64,000 bases of DNA from Bremerella sp. TYQ1. Its GTDB lineage: Bacteria; Planctomycetota; Planctomycetia; Pirellulales; Pirellulaceae. Of the stretch, positions 25,219 to 63,726 are shown in pieces. Made by a program: the position numbers and the translations under genes. Under the pieces are notes generated by a model that saw nothing but the letters and a program-made list of their open reading frames with translations, did no database searches and was not told the origin of the DNA. The stretch is from positions 5,973,001 to 6,037,000 of the forward strand of contig NZ_CP083740.1 of assembly GCF_020150455.1 (NCBI RefSeq), written 5' to 3'. Each line of letters begins with the position of its first letter. The stretch's first letter is position 1.

Positions 25219-25719
25219 ATGGCGCAAATCAATTTGATTATTGGGGCGATCTTTGGAATGGTTGCGATCGTAGGTGGTCCGATTGGTGCTCCTACGGTGA
25301 AGCTGAAGTTGGACGAGCAGCTTCGCGCGAAAGCGAAGTTAGTGCCTGGTCCGGCTTTGCCCAATGGTGATCCTGGGCCTGAGATCATGGAGATCAGCTC
25401 CATTGATCGCCAAGAGAACGAACTGCGGTGGGAGAATTATCAGCACGGTGTTCAGTACGTGATGTACCATGCTTTGGCGCTCACCGCTTTGGGGGTCGTC
25501 GGAACGCGCGGCTACGGCCAAATTATCGGAGGTAGCGGCTTCGTGTTAGGCACACTTCTGTACGGAGGAGGTCTCGCGCTAGGAGCGATTCTCGACATGC
25601 CCACGCTGCAAGTGGGGATGTCCGTTGGTGGAGTTCTGCTTCTCGTGGGATGGTGTGGGCTTGCGCTCGCGACAATTTCCGCGAGACCGAAATCGGTGAA
25701 CCCTGCCTTAGACTCTTGA
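25219..25719 (+). CDS. DUF423 family membrane protein
   Basis: A 166-residue protein with an N-terminal hydrophobic helix (INLIIGAIFGMVAIVGGPIG), a 60-residue polar loop, the family motif YQHGVQYVMYHALALTALG, and two more C-terminal helices. DUF423 (YgdD-like) proteins have no known function. AAGGGGAG precedes the ATG. It lies ten bases after the lipoprotein gene and may be co-transcribed with it. A paralogue begins at 63727. Confidence 0.85.
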   Translation: MAQINLIIGAIFGMVAIVGGPIGAPTVKLKLDEQLRAKAKLVPGPALPNGDPGPEIMEISSIDRQENELRWENYQHGVQYVMYHALALTALGVVGTRGYGQIIGGSGFVLGTLLYGGGLALGAILDMPTLQVGMSVGGVLLLVGWCGLALATISARPKSVNPALDS

Positions 25720-58873: not shown

Positions 58874-59014
58874 TAACCGCCTCACCTAGAAATGCAAGGA
58901 TGCAGATTCACCAGTGCGCGCGACGCGTGGACACTGCCAAAGGACCCGTTTGGGACCGTTGGTGGATGTTCCCTTGTCAGAAACGTGTCGGCGTGGGGGA
59001 AGGATAGGAACACC

Positions 59015-62000
59015 ATGAATCATTCTCGGACGATCCCAAAACACATGGATCGCAGGCTGCCACAAGTTCAGACAAGGAGAGTCGCGTTGAATTTGGCCAC
59101 GCGTGTGCTTACAGCCGGTCTCATTGCCGTGCTGTGCTTCAGCACTGGAAAAGGGGTCGTCGCTAACCCGTTGACCGAGATTGAGCTCGTCACGACCATG
59201 ACGGCGACCGGTCAACAGCAGGGTTCGCTGTACGATCAGCAAAAGCAGGAAGAGGTGCTTCGGAACGCTCGCGCCGCGATGCGTGCTGGAGACTACCAAC
59301 GTGCTGGCTCGCTGATCGAGCAAGCCAAGTCATTCAATGCTCCTGGCGATCCCGCCTTCAGCAAGTTCCGCGACACGCCTGAAAAGGCTGCCCAGGATCT
59401 TGCCGATCTGCAGGGTGCCAAAAGCAATCCCGACTACGTCGGCCAGAAGTTGCTCGGTCAGTCACCTGACATGCAGCAGCAAATGGCTGCTGAAGCTCTG
59501 GCTCGGGGCAAAGCAGCCCTGGAAAGCGGCCAGACGATGTCGGCGTTGAACTACTATCAACAAGCCGCCAAAGCCGGTCCTAACTTTCAGTCGGCCGGTT
59601 ACTCGGTGATGGCTTTCCGCCGCGATCTGGAACAAGCGGGCGTTCAAGGGGCAATGCTCGGTGGCGATGTCGCTGCCGCACCGCAGGCCACCACGCCAAC
59701 TCGCTTGCCAAGCGTGAGCGAAACGCCGGAACCATCGACGACGGCAAATCCTTACATGGCTGCCAGCGGCGCCCAAGGCAACGCCGAAACGGCTCGCCGA
59801 ATGCTGCTTCAGGCTCGCCTCGAACTGGCTCGCGGGAATGTGGCACTCTCCGAGAAGCTCGTTCGCCAGGTGAATGGCTTGGGTCTGGTTTATCCGGCTC
59901 ACCAAGATTCGCCTGAGAATGTTGACTACTTGATCCGCAAAGTCAATCAGGTTTCCGCTTCGCCGGTTGGTCCTCAGTCGGCCTATCAGTTTGGTGAAGT
60001 TCTGCTGCAACAAGCCGAAGGCCTGATGCTTTACGGCCAATACGATCTGGCCGAGCAAATGACTCGCCAGGTGCAGTCGATGAACCTCGACTTCCAGCGT
60101 GCACGCGTGACGCCTGACCGATTGATGACGGAGATCACTCGTCGTCGTAGCGGTCAGTCGGGCGGTCAGCAGGCCTCGCCGCAGGTTCCTGACAACATTG
60201 CAGGAAACGCCCGTGCGAAAGAACAAGCCATCCTCGTGCAAGCGAAAGCAGCTTTGGATCGTGGCGACATCGGCACTGCCGAAGCGTTCACCAAGCAAGC
60301 CAGCACGCTCGGCAACGGAAGCTACCAACAAGGCGACCTTCGCCCTGACCTGTTGATGCTGGAAATTCAACGAGCCAAGGCTTCCAGCCCAGTTCGTCAT
60401 GCCAGCGGAACGCAGAGCCAAGGTGGTGCTGGATTCCCAGTCGCTCAAGGTCTCTACAATCCTCAGAACGACGATACCCGCAACATGCCAGCTTCGGCTC
60501 AGCAGGGTGCGACCGGTCAAGCCGGCATGCGTTACTTGCAGGAAGGCGAACAAGCCTTGGCTGCTGGTGACAAAATGAAGGCTCGCAAGTTGTTCGAGGA
60601 AGCTTGGAAGTACGAAAACCAACTCGAACCAGGTGCTCGCCAGCGTCTGCAAGACTTCCTGCAGTACCAAACCAATCCTGTGACCAGCGGTGTCGCTCAA
60701 ACGAGCAATCCTTCGCCACTGGCGGAAATCGACGCTCGTCAGCAGGTCCTTCTGCGTCAGATGATCGCGGAAGTGACTCGCGGACAGTCGCAAGCCGATG
60801 CCATGCGAGAAGTCGATCCGAAGGGTGCTTTGGACAAGCTGAAGACCGTTCGCAAGACGGTTGACGAGTCGGCCATCGACGCCGTCGGTAAGAAGCAGCT
60901 TCTCTCCCGCGTCGATCGTAGCATCGAATCGCTGGAAACCTACATCGACATGAACAAGTCGCAGATCGAACTCGACGAGCGAAATGCCGCTCTGAAGAAA
61001 GAGATCAAAGACGAACGCGATTACAAGCTGGAAGTCGACAACAAGTTGGCTGAAATGGTCGAGCAGTTCAACGAACTGATGGACCAACAGCGATGGCAAG
61101 AAGCGGAAGTGCTCGCTCGCCAGGCCCGCGAAATGGATCCGGAAAACCCGGTCGTCCAAACGCTGATCTGGAAATCGAAGTTCGCTCGCCGCACCTATCA
61201 GAACCTTGCGTTGCAGGACCAGAAGGAAGAAGCCGTCTGGGCAACGCTGCAAGATGTCGAAAACTCGGCCATCCCGTTCAACGACTCGAACCCAATCCGG
61301 TTCGGTGACGCCAAAGAATGGGCTGACATGACCGAACGTCGTCGTCGCTGGTTGGCAGAGAACTCGCAGATCTCGGAAGACGAAGTCGAGATTCGCAAGG
61401 CTCTCAAGACCAAAGTCGACGTCAAGTTCAACAAGCAGTCGCTGCAAAGCGTCATGGAAACCCTCGGCAGCATGGTCGGTATCAACGTGATGCTTGATCC
61501 ACGCGGCCTGCAGGCAGAAGGGGTGACTTACGACACCGAAATCACCATTAACATGCAGCAAGCGGTTCGCTTGGACAGTGCTTTGAATCACATTCTGCAG
61601 CCACTGCGGCTCAGCTATGTGATTCGCGACGAAGCCCTGGTCATCACCAGCGAATCGTTCCGCAGCCGCAACGTTTACCAGAAGGTTTACAACGTCGCTG
61701 ACTTGGTGCTGCCGATTCCGAACTTTGTTCCGAGCTACAACATGGGTTTGCCAGGTGCCATTAAGGCTGCCTACGAAAGCCAAGGTCTTGCCGGTTCGCC
61801 AGCAGGTACCATGGGCGGAACCAACCCGATGTCGCTGTTCGCTCAAGGGGAAGACCTCAGCAGCTCGAGTGCTTTGGCTCAGGTTCCTAACGGATTCATC
61901 CCTGGCTTGTCCGGCGGTGGTCCTCCTGTCAGCGGTCAAGCTCAAGGCAACATGGGCTTCGGTCCTGGTGGCGGTGTCGGCGGAGCCGGTGGCTTCGGTG

Positions 62001-63157
62001 GTGGCGTTCAGCCTGACTTCGACTCGCTGATCGAACTGATCACAACGACGGTGGAACCAGAATCGTGGGAAGAACTGGGGGGTCCTGGTTCGGTCGCTCC
62101 ATTCGCTACGAACCTTAGCCTGGTTGTCAGCCAGACTCAGGAAGTGCACGACCGACTCGCCGACCTCTTGGCTCAGCTGCGACGTCTGCAAGACCTTCAG
62201 GTCACCATCGAAGTTCGCTTCATCACGCTGACCGACAACTTCTTCGAGCGTATCGGTGTCGACTTCGACTTCGAGCTCAACGATAACTCGGACGGCCCAA
62301 GCCCAACCGGTAGCCCTAGTGTGACGGTCGGTTTGAACGAGTACGATCCTGTGAACGGCCCTGTGTTCACGGAAGACTTGGACCTTCAGTTCACACAGCA
62401 GATGTTTGCTAACACGGTTCCTGCGGTCGGTGGTCTTATCCAACCGGCAGGTGCTCAGTTTGGCTTCGCCATGCTGTCGGACATCGAAGCTTACTTCGTG
62501 ATGCAGGCCGCCCAGGGTGACTTGCGATCGAACGTGATGCAAGCTCCTAAGGTTACGCTGTTCAACGGTCAAACGGCATTCGTGTCGGATACCACGCAAA
62601 CCCCGTTCGTCACGAGCGTGGTCCCTGTCGTGGGTGACTTTGCCGCCGCACAGCAGCCGGTCATTGTGGTTCTCAACGAAGGTACTTCGCTCAGCGTTCA
62701 AGCGGTTGTCTCGCCAGACCGTCGCTTTGTCCGCCTGACGCTGGTACCATTCTTCAGCCGTATCGGAAACGTCGAAGAGTTCACCTTTGAAGGAACGACC
62801 AGCAGTCGTACCGACTCGACGGTGACCGATCCTGACGCTCCGGATGGCGGTTCGACCGAAGATGAAGAGGAAGAAACCACTTCCGGTACCACGATTCAGC
62901 TGCCGCAGTTCTCCTTCGTGACAGTGAGCACGACGGTGAGTGTGCCGGACGGCGGTACGGTGCTCTTGGGTGGTATTAAGCGTCTGAGCGAAGAACGTCG
63001 CGAACGCGGTATTCCGGTCTTCAGTAAGCTGCCGTACATCAACCGACTGTTCCGTAATGTGGGTATCGGCCGCGAAACCCAAAGCCTCATGATGATGGTG
63101 ACTCCTCGAATCATCATCCAAGAGGAAGAAGAAGCCAAACTCGGCTTCACCAACTAA
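59015..63157 (+). CDS. Type II/IV secretin with long N-terminal repeat region (PilQ-like)
   Basis: A 1380-residue outer-membrane channel protein. A hydrophobic export segment lies near residues 31-50 (LTAGLIAVLCFSTGKGVVA). Residues 60-600 hold several helical repeats of the pattern ARxALxxGDxxxAxxLxxQA. A coiled coil is near 640-700. An STN-like part is near 800-870 (VDVKFNKQSLQSVMETLG), a Gly-rich linker near 915-1005, and the secretin domain from about 1010 to the end (LQVTIEVRFITLTDNFFERIG, then IPVFSKLPYINRLFR). PilQ is usually about half as long. The ATG at 59015 has AAGGA upstream. It has its own promoter region and terminator. Confidence 0.9.
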   Translation: MNHSRTIPKHMDRRLPQVQTRRVALNLATRVLTAGLIAVLCFSTGKGVVANPLTEIELVTTMTATGQQQGSLYDQQKQEEVLRNARAAMRAGDYQRAGSLIEQAKSFNAPGDPAFSKFRDTPEKAAQDLADLQGAKSNPDYVGQKLLGQSPDMQQQMAAEALARGKAALESGQTMSALNYYQQAAKAGPNFQSAGYSVMAFRRDLEQAGVQGAMLGGDVAAAPQATTPTRLPSVSETPEPSTTANPYMAASGAQGNAETARRMLLQARLELARGNVALSEKLVRQVNGLGLVYPAHQDSPENVDYLIRKVNQVSASPVGPQSAYQFGEVLLQQAEGLMLYGQYDLAEQMTRQVQSMNLDFQRARVTPDRLMTEITRRRSGQSGGQQASPQVPDNIAGNARAKEQAILVQAKAALDRGDIGTAEAFTKQASTLGNGSYQQGDLRPDLLMLEIQRAKASSPVRHASGTQSQGGAGFPVAQGLYNPQNDDTRNMPASAQQGATGQAGMRYLQEGEQALAAGDKMKARKLFEEAWKYENQLEPGARQRLQDFLQYQTNPVTSGVAQTSNPSPLAEIDARQQVLLRQMIAEVTRGQSQADAMREVDPKGALDKLKTVRKTVDESAIDAVGKKQLLSRVDRSIESLETYIDMNKSQIELDERNAALKKEIKDERDYKLEVDNKLAEMVEQFNELMDQQRWQEAEVLARQAREMDPENPVVQTLIWKSKFARRTYQNLALQDQKEEAVWATLQDVENSAIPFNDSNPIRFGDAKEWADMTERRRRWLAENSQISEDEVEIRKALKTKVDVKFNKQSLQSVMETLGSMVGINVMLDPRGLQAEGVTYDTEITINMQQAVRLDSALNHILQPLRLSYVIRDEALVITSESFRSRNVYQKVYNVADLVLPIPNFVPSYNMGLPGAIKAAYESQGLAGSPAGTMGGTNPMSLFAQGEDLSSSSALAQVPNGFIPGLSGGGPPVSGQAQGNMGFGPGGGVGGAGGFGGGVQPDFDSLIELITTTVEPESWEELGGPGSVAPFATNLSLVVSQTQEVHDRLADLLAQLRRLQDLQVTIEVRFITLTDNFFERIGVDFDFELNDNSDGPSPTGSPSVTVGLNEYDPVNGPVFTEDLDLQFTQQMFANTVPAVGGLIQPAGAQFGFAMLSDIEAYFVMQAAQGDLRSNVMQAPKVTLFNGQTAFVSDTTQTPFVTSVVPVVGDFAAAQQPVIVVLNEGTSLSVQAVVSPDRRFVRLTLVPFFSRIGNVEEFTFEGTTSSRTDSTVTDPDAPDGGSTEDEEEETTSGTTIQLPQFSFVTVSTTVSVPDGGTVLLGGIKRLSEERRERGIPVFSKLPYINRLFRNVGIGRETQSLMMMVTPRIIIQEEEEAKLGFTN

Positions 63158-63231: not shown

Positions 63232-63306
63232 GCGCGCTGCTCGGGGGTTGGAATACAATGGGGTTTGCTCCGTGCTGGCCTTGGAAGTTGACGTGCCGAT
63301 CGAAGT

Positions 63307-63721
63307 GTTCAGTTTTCAGTGTTCCGTTTTCAGTAAGAGGGAGGAAAGACGAATTGGCTTACCAGTCGTTTGAAGACCTTGAAGTTTGGAAACGATCCTG
63401 CAAACTAGCTGTCGAGATCTATGCGTCATTACAGGCCTGTCGCGACTTCGCACTCCGAGATCAAATGCAGAAGTCGGCTGTGTCCGTGGCCAGCAACATT
63501 GCCGAAGGTTCCGAACGGGGCGGGAAAGACTTCATCCGCTTCCTGAAGATCGCCCAAGGCTCGGCTGCTGAGTTGAGAACCCAATGTTACATTGCCGCAC
63601 GTGTGGGGGTGATCTCTCACAAAGACCAAACAAGATTCGTGTCAGAGCTAAAACGATTTCCCGTATGCTAACCAGTCTGGCACAATCTCTTACTGAAAAC
63701 CGAACACTGAAAACTGAAAAC
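63307..63721 (+). mobile_element. IVS-like cassette: four-helix-bundle gene between 31-bp inverted repeats
   Basis: The left end 63307-63337 and right end 63689-63719 are inverted copies that match at 29 of 31 positions; each is built of TTTTCAGT-like units, such as CTGAAAAC on one strand. Between them lies a gene of the S23/intervening-sequence four-helix-bundle family. Known 23S rRNA intervening sequences have the same plan: complementary ends that fold into a stem and an inner open frame for this protein. Here the cassette is not in rRNA but between a secretin gene and a DUF423 gene. The right end reaches to five bases before the next start codon. Confidence 0.6.
63354..63671 (+). CDS. Four-helix-bundle protein (S23/IVS family), C-terminus frameshifted
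   Basis: From a TTG at 63354 (with GGGAGGAAAG upstream) this codes 105 residues. The family pattern is clear: SFEDLEVWKRSCKLAVEIY, then ALRDQMQKSAVSVASNIAEG, then FIRFLKIAQGSAAELRTQ. The frame ends ELKRFPVC. In the next frame the DNA continues ISRMLTSLAQSLTENRTLK to a stop at 63722-63724, which is the usual family ending after EL. One base seems missing near 63648-63652. The protein fits the fold of proteins coded in 23S rRNA intervening sequences and of retroelement accessory protein Avd. Confidence 0.8.
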   Translation: MAYQSFEDLEVWKRSCKLAVEIYASLQACRDFALRDQMQKSAVSVASNIAEGSERGGKDFIRFLKIAQGSAAELRTQCYIAARVGVISHKDQTRFVSELKRFPVC

Positions 63722-63726
63722 TAACA

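Follow-up and report, generated by a model that had tools for sequence, protein, structure and literature searches.

An S23 gene between convergent heptamer arrays in Bremerella sp. TYQ1: a cassette that may be mobile, and gene-less palindromes built from the same unit

What is a gene of the S23 family doing between two protein genes, shut in by ends that are complementary to each other? The question arises near the end of a stretch of 64,000 nucleotides from Bremerella sp. TYQ1, here called the window. An S23 reading frame within a unit with complementary ends is the plan of those intervening sequences of 23S rRNA that carry an S23p ORF, as in Coxiella and Leptospira, and rRNA intervening sequences have long been suspected of being mobile (PMC4990558). 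A sequence-only reading of the window had proposed a cassette of this plan outside rRNA, and such it is: it lies between protein genes, its frame matches PF05635, and each of its arms comprises 36 nt. The features of the locus are as follows.

58892..63157, + strand: upstream neighbour and host flank, presumably a secretin-type gene (from the ORF list)
63304..63722, no strand assigned: the whole cassette, 419 bp, an insertion by synteny versus the six relatives in which the interval was read
63304..63339, + strand: left arm, heptamer array AGTGTTC-AGTTTTC-AGTGTTC-CGTTTTC-AGTAAGAG (sequence and inverted-repeat search)
63354..63671, + strand: PF05635/TIGR02436 (S23, four-helix-bundle) gene, probable TTG start at 63354, shortened by a late frameshift (HMM matches; start inferred from relatives)
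63672..63724, + strand: C-terminal remnant in another frame, ending ...SLTENRTLKTEN stop, which crosses the right arm (translations)
63687..63722, - strand: right arm, the complementary heptamer array, which stops 4 nt short of the DUF423 start codon
63727..64000, + strand: downstream neighbour, a DUF423 gene (PF04241, profile match), which continues beyond the window

The two arms are 94% complementary. The best 31-nt inverted-repeat window of the 64 kb, at 63308, matches at 30 of 31 positions; the 29 of 31 given by the earlier reading is reproduced for the 31 nt from 63307 against 63689-63719 of the right arm, 2 bases to the left of the end it had named. Inverted repeats of this kind (31 nt, at least 26 matches, spacing up to about 700) were found nowhere else in the 64 kb, and three shuffles of a 24-kb part of the window gave 21 matches at best. 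Each arm is a run of about five 7-nt units, AGTTTTC or AGTGTTC; the left arm reads inward as the G/T-rich strand, the right one is its complement. The earlier description of TTTTCAGT units was right in seeing repeated units, but their true period is 7, and the 14-nt direct repeats within the arms are two such units. What it missed are the 7-nt arrays themselves, the recurrence of the unit at other places of the genome, in palindromes without a gene, and the spread of the arrangement over many phyla. A fold predicted for the transcript of the cassette (z -4.8) has a long terminal stem.

The enclosed frame matches PF05635 with 1.5e-28 and TIGR02436, “four helix bundle protein”, with 1.2e-26. The HMM match begins at 63372, and the TTG at 63354, chosen by comparison with relatives, suits the N-terminus of the family. 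Near the gene end a frameshift lets the frame stop at 63671; the usual C-terminus (SLTEN...) runs on in another frame to a stop at 63722-63724. That the right repeat is part of the coding sequence, as had been claimed, is borne out: the 3' end of the gene extends into the right arm, and in the relative G001 the arm supplies ...LTEN-stop. Three of the four copies of the window's subfamily in the genus are broken by a frameshift or a stop, which counts against a mobile cassette. In two of these relatives, G004 and G005 (L030, L029), a stop (TGA, TAG) occupies the same conserved Trp codon of EDLEVW, near the gene start. The genome of the window (G000) has one PF05635 gene. Its nucleotide identity is 65.9-68.0% to the other copies of the genus and 65.5 and 66.7% to those of two other genera; the copies of G001 and G005 share 78.3%. 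A weak second DUF423 match lies in the window at 25426-25632 (1.1e-7).

As to the protein, no transposase, nuclease or reverse transcriptase family was matched: Pfam yields PF05635 only, NCBIfam TIGR02436 and two “hypothetical protein” subfamilies. The AlphaFold model of the G001 relative shows four helices (pLDDT 96). A profile search of the PDB matched 2GSC and 2RLD, each deposited with five chains. For the nearest solved relative, XCC0516 of Xanthomonas (2GSC), a homopentamer of four-helix bundles is reported (PMC4990558). Avd of diversity-generating retroelements belongs, according to PMC10053308, to a related four-helix-bundle family; no Avd entry was among the PDB matches listed.

Is the cassette a fixture of its place? 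In six relatives (L113, L114, L117-L120) the secretin-type and DUF423 genes are adjacent, and there are neither arms nor an S23 gene between them; these six are the relatives in which the interval was read, two further ones in the other orientation being left aside. Compared in this way, as the sequence-only reading had advised, the cassette is an insertion, and orthologous intervals without it do exist. G001, G004 and G005 carry a related cassette at another locus, between what we take from the translations to be a deacylase-like gene and a convergent sigma-factor gene, and the copy of G005 is inverted between the same flanks. This second site is empty in G003 (a genome 68% complete) and G006; G008 has only a tiny palindrome there, the unit of which is the outermost unit of the G004 cassette; G002 keeps a right-arm remnant, and G000 and G007 have other DNA. 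A target-site duplication cannot be read at the cassette, because the empty sites are too diverged. The differences between sites and the one inversion support the view that the cassette has moved, though no exact event was caught.

Nor are the repeats confined to this copy of the family. Inverted arms scoring above all 100 shuffles frame the gene at 150 of 187 PF05635 loci, versus 11 of 346 for mock genes of about the same size placed within these loci. At an arm score of at least 20 the figures are 100 of 187 and 2 of 346, one of the latter two being an artefact of an N-run. The 187 loci comprise 109 from Pirellulales (110 of the PF05635 places listed, mostly stronger matches, less L090, which was too short) and 78 from one GTDB scan (80 loci among the 572 relatives listed, less the likewise short L310 and L360). 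Taken alone, Pirellulales show arms above all 200 shuffles at 84 of 109 loci and the GTDB scan shows inverted arms at 60 of 78; five of five S23 copies examined on cyanobacterial plasmids (out of 15 plasmid records) have them too. By record titles, the sources of the positive loci include Pseudomonadota, Bacteroidota, Acidobacteria, Nitrospira, Planctomycetota, Clostridia, Verrucomicrobia, several candidate phyla and one Methanophagales archaeon, some of the phylum names being our assumption from the genus. Among the plasmid copies, the armed gene of L280 (Nostoc edaphicum) lies between genes for ribonucleotide reductase subunits and that of L283 (Calothrix) between genes annotated as transporters of the toxin-secretion type.

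Clear arms are missing at 37 of the 187 loci, which again counts against the mobile reading. Loci of the EKLxVYQK type lack arms in six of seven cases (L031, L066, L071, L074, L079, L091); therefore, not all PF05635 genes sit in cassettes. Genes of the ERLDVYRLS type (L089, L096, L100, L103) have inverted arms of another design, with hexamer-like GTACTC runs. Searched with Rfam at gathering thresholds, neither the 78 GTDB loci nor L032 and L027 contain rRNA; the matches at the loci examined are two SAH riboswitches, two Acido-Lenti-1 and two tRNAs, one of the tRNAs about 120 nt upstream of the L329 gene.

The unit is mostly a heptamer, though hardly ever the same one. Among the 150 armed loci the best period is 7 in 96, 8 in 18, 6 in 3 and 9 in 3, and unclear in 30; the GC skew of the left arm is positive in 94.7%. 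In the 91 cassettes with a clear 7-nt unit the commonest unit occurs only four times. Across these 91, to which the Mantel test was restricted, unit and protein distance correlate with rho 0.17 (maximum of 500 permutations, 0.11), and the mean number of mismatches out of 7 falls from 3.4 at a protein identity below 20% to 2.8 at 60-70%. The claim that ends and protein evolve together survives to this extent: a weak correlation exists beyond 500 permutations, but it is small. The commonest arm length is five units, found in Luteimonas in 26 of 36 paired arms, in the window's genome in 15 of 30 and among the cassette arms of the order in 33 of 96, where four units follow with 23 of 96; these runs were measured with mismatches tolerated, which may pad the ends. 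The AGTGGTG arms of another genome, G059, have five units in only one of eight, and in Xanthomonas the commonest array length, by a stricter count, is four (Rehm 2015, PMC4692102).

The window unit also occurs in the genome apart from the S23 gene. The triple unit has 57 matches at about 25 sites in G000, whereas the pattern read backwards has none. Where opposite arrays are adjacent, they run + then - in 15 of 15 cases (20 regions around such matches). An ungapped-arm detector of palindromes missed most of the known ones and was replaced by another. Fourteen palindromes were studied; they are 94-419 bp long, and ten begin 3-13 nt from the left ORF, with ORFs called mechanically. A second TTTTCAG palindrome, past DUF423 and beyond the window (G000:C1:6037202-6037379, i.e., L244:12202-12379), lies directly downstream of that gene, which is thus framed on both sides. 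The idea that the interiors are decayed S23 genes had to be rejected: among the 14, only the window interior matches the protein (tblastn). Also rejected was a co-variation of arms specific to each palindrome, since in G000 an arm is no closer to its own partner than to arms of other palindromes (permutation P 0.67). Nested further repeats are common to the loops of several unrelated palindromes (L229, L230, L234, L237, L244), one of them CCCTCACCCTAACCCTCTCCCC-like.

In the genus these palindromes are fairly stable. With eight of the 14 as queries, seven sites could be located in relatives; one query had no match. At five sites (0, 4, 5, 6 and 7) a palindrome of the window unit is present, judged by eye, in 4, 4, 3, 3 and 2 of four relatives, respectively. 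At what is probably the sucC-sucD gene pair, compared over nine genomes, four have the palindrome and three, namely G001, G004 and G008, keep only the right-hand array before the ATG; G003 and G006 have decayed arrays. Arms outlast interiors, with normalised scores of 0.68 versus 0.29 at four sites (0.19 and 0.18 when shuffled); the sites had been picked for having arms, and the comparison covers those orthologues in which an arm pair was detected. Normalised scores were used because percent identity of aligned arm and interior columns proved uninformative, shuffled interiors reaching 0.75. The palindromes turn over slowly, under constraint or homogenisation, and do not jump rampantly.

Do gene and repeats belong together? 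In two Xanthomonas genomes, Rehm 2015 (PMC4692102) counts 70 and 75 pairs of GGGAATC heptamer arrays that converge and are mostly intergenic. If gene and repeats do belong together, GGGAATC should also frame the gene of an XCC0516 relative, an expectation set down before the GTDB scan. The closest among the matches listed in that scan, a Luteimonas protein (73% identity), is encoded by a gene framed by GGGAATC arrays of 38 and 33 nt. The left arm starts 6 nt after the upstream stop and the right arm ends at the next ATG; the flanking genes are, judging from their translations, presumably accB and accC. The gene is the single PF05635 match of its genome. Two-unit GGGAATC has 307 matches there, overlaps counted, versus 0, 4, 6, 1 and 1 in five other PF05635-bearing genomes. 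The polarity is + then - in 18 of 19 adjacent pairs (20 regions, ten of them picked for showing such a pair), and in the other ten of these regions it is 6 versus 1. Similarly, TTAGTGG has 16 matches on two contigs of Thiohalocapsa, some being the gene's own arms, and 0-1 elsewhere. The backwards control of this TTAGTGG search, GGTGATT pairs, gave 61 matches in Luteimonas (G060) versus 0-2 in five other genomes, which suggests a second heptamer family in Luteimonas.

In G059, which has six PF05635 matches, 400 kb (two blocks with one PF05635 gene each) contain 61 period-7 tracts, 28 of them with an inverted partner, at about 18 separate places, two of which are PF05635 cassettes; in 400 kb of G052, a genome without a PF05635 match, there are seven such tracts and none is partnered. 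The contrast is one of two genomes only. Many of the places in G059 use the units of three examined cassettes, AGCTTTC, GTGAGTG and GAGGATA (L034, L044, L047); others, with ATTGCAA or AGTTGTC-like units, match none of the five cassettes examined out of the six PF05635 matches. Partnered tracts of other periods occur as well (period 8 twelve, period 10 eight, period 13 six). When 60 genomes were searched for TTTTCAG arrays, at least ten matches were found in 7 of 10 with a gene of the same subfamily versus 5 of 50 without (Fisher 1.9e-4), genomes of one genus not being independent; outside the genus the figures are 3 of 6 and 2 of 45 (P 0.009). There are exceptions on both sides: G002, G007, G008 and G050 have 53, 53, 12 and 305 matches without a matching gene, and three genomes with a matching gene have 2, 3 and 0. 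The matches of this search listed for G059 have another unit, AGTTGTC. The single PF05635 match of G050, the genome with 305, has a different arm unit.

Resemblances to known systems are partial. REPIN-RAYT systems and MITEs with their autonomous partners combine one gene with many short palindromes that have its ends. Like MITEs, the gene-less copies here carry the ends of the gene-bearing copy of the same genome, with the exceptions of the 60-genome comparison. Unlike in either system, the cassette has no transposase and its arms are tandem units without a fixed end sequence; the gene framed by the repeats is PF05635, not a Y1-type RAYT. From the 23S rRNA intervening sequences the cassette differs by its place outside rRNA and by gene-less relatives dispersed in the genome, and it may differ by its tandem-heptamer arms. 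To our knowledge, there is no other system in which a protein that lacks a catalytic domain goes together with a tandem word specific to its lineage and scattered in the form of palindromes. If movement were proved, the element could be a far variant of the plan of autonomous element and MITE.

The closest likeness in outward form is that to the GGGAATC repeats of Xanthomonas: they too are convergent pairs of heptamer arrays, as are 15 of 15 adjacent pairs in G000 and 18 of 19 in Luteimonas, and the same heptamer frames the sole PF05635 gene of Luteimonas. In Rehm 2015 (PMC4692102) they are treated as G-quadruplex repeats generally not found with mobile elements, and “S23”, “four helix” and “xcc0516” do not occur in its text. 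The TAACTGA repeats of Beggiatoaceae, cyanobacteria and Bacteroidetes are heptamer arrays mostly upstream of starts, as are the right-hand arms of the window type; unlike these they are direct arrays, with one inverted case reported, and “S23”, “four helix” and “intervening sequence” do not occur in the text (MacGregor 2015, PMC4679880). A literature search, in which subscription papers mostly lay outside and absence is therefore unproven, found no paper linking PF05635, S23 or four helix bundles with heptamer arrays. S23 proteins and heptamer palindromes are each already in print; a link between them did not turn up in that search.

How, then, is all this to be explained? The arms, their units, the agreement of the gene's unit with that of scattered arrays in the tested genomes, the polarity, and the empty and differing sites are the observed ground. 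From these sequences we lean, with restrained confidence, towards the view that the window holds one copy of a widespread mobile cassette, that its arms are recognised by its own ring-shaped protein and that the gene-less palindromes are dependent copies. The element would have two parts: a cassette of about 400-550 bp, with the S23/IVP gene between convergent, lineage-specific arrays of mostly a 7-nt unit, about five per arm, and gene-less palindromes near gene ends in the same genome, with the same arms and other interiors. The protein, a ring of five in the solved relative, may read an arm with roughly one heptamer per subunit; that, in the tested cases, the unit of a gene is also the one scattered through its genome is most simply accounted for by the protein recognising it. 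Five units are, however, not universal (four in Xanthomonas, one arm in eight in G059), so that matching one heptamer to each subunit is conjecture, not a finding. Recognition might move or maintain copies of both kinds, as an autonomous element serves its MITEs, and since the cassette has no recognised catalytic domain, host enzymes or a reverse transcriptase acting in trans are proposed.

The palindromes kept in relatives and the arms outlasting their interiors fit a cellular role as well and count against mobility. The S23 protein could be an RNA-binding regulator and the arrays in untranslated regions its sites for controlling translation or mRNA stability; the gene would then be no transposon. 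The slow turnover of the palindromes is the main reason to retain this explanation. It also agrees with palindromes that adjoin genes (10 of 14 lie 3-13 nt from the left ORF), with right-hand arrays that reach start codons, e.g., at sucC-sucD in G001, G004 and G008, with the long terminal stem predicted for the window's transcript, and with the translational regulation proposed for TAACTGA heptamers upstream of starts (MacGregor 2015, PMC4679880). It is at odds with gene and arms at differing sites in sister species, inverted in one, and different units for genes of one genome as well as gene decay while arrays persist better suit a selfish element. We consider regulation unlikely, if worth keeping in mind.

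Less credit still can be given to mere hitch-hiking, whereby heptamer minisatellites would arise from slippage and S23 genes only land or survive beside them. Some bacteria indeed abound in tandem heptamer repeats for which no protein is known (PMC4692102, PMC4679880), and arrays without a matching gene turned up among the 60 genomes. Yet arms frame 150 of 187 PF05635 genes and only 11 of 346 mock genes, the polarity is fixed as + then -, the left arm is G-rich in 94.7%, and in the tested cases the unit that frames a gene is scattered through that gene's genome; this reading is already improbable. A classical intervening sequence that left rRNA and is still excised from transcripts by RNase III would share the ORF family and the complementary ends; the Coxiella element ends in a 28-bp stem and is cut by RNase III (PMC4990558), and the window RNA is predicted to form such a stem. 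Between protein genes, however, excision is unneeded, no rRNA is present at the 78 GTDB loci or L032 and L027, and the dispersed gene-less palindromes would stay unexplained, so that we regard it as very improbable.

Going beyond the favoured reading of a mobile cassette, a broader picture may be sketched, albeit as a speculation that we ourselves think more doubtful than not. S23/IVP proteins might be ring-shaped readers of repeats, with a private heptamer in each lineage, about one heptamer per subunit and a five-unit arm for one ring; they would drive a system, mobile or genome-marking, that lacks its own catalytic domain and is present in many phyla as well as in an archaeal lineage. The palindromes of Xanthomonas, Nostoc and planctomycetes would stem from it, and the intervening sequences of rRNA would be copies that landed there. 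What the link offers in any case is that it joins three things: S23/IVP proteins, of which a structure was published in 2006, heptamer palindromes reported without a cause, and rRNA intervening sequences suspected of mobility. The large natural set of pairs of protein and repeat could allow a recognition code to be read. And if the cassettes are mobile, they would constitute a family of elements without a recognisable enzyme of its own.
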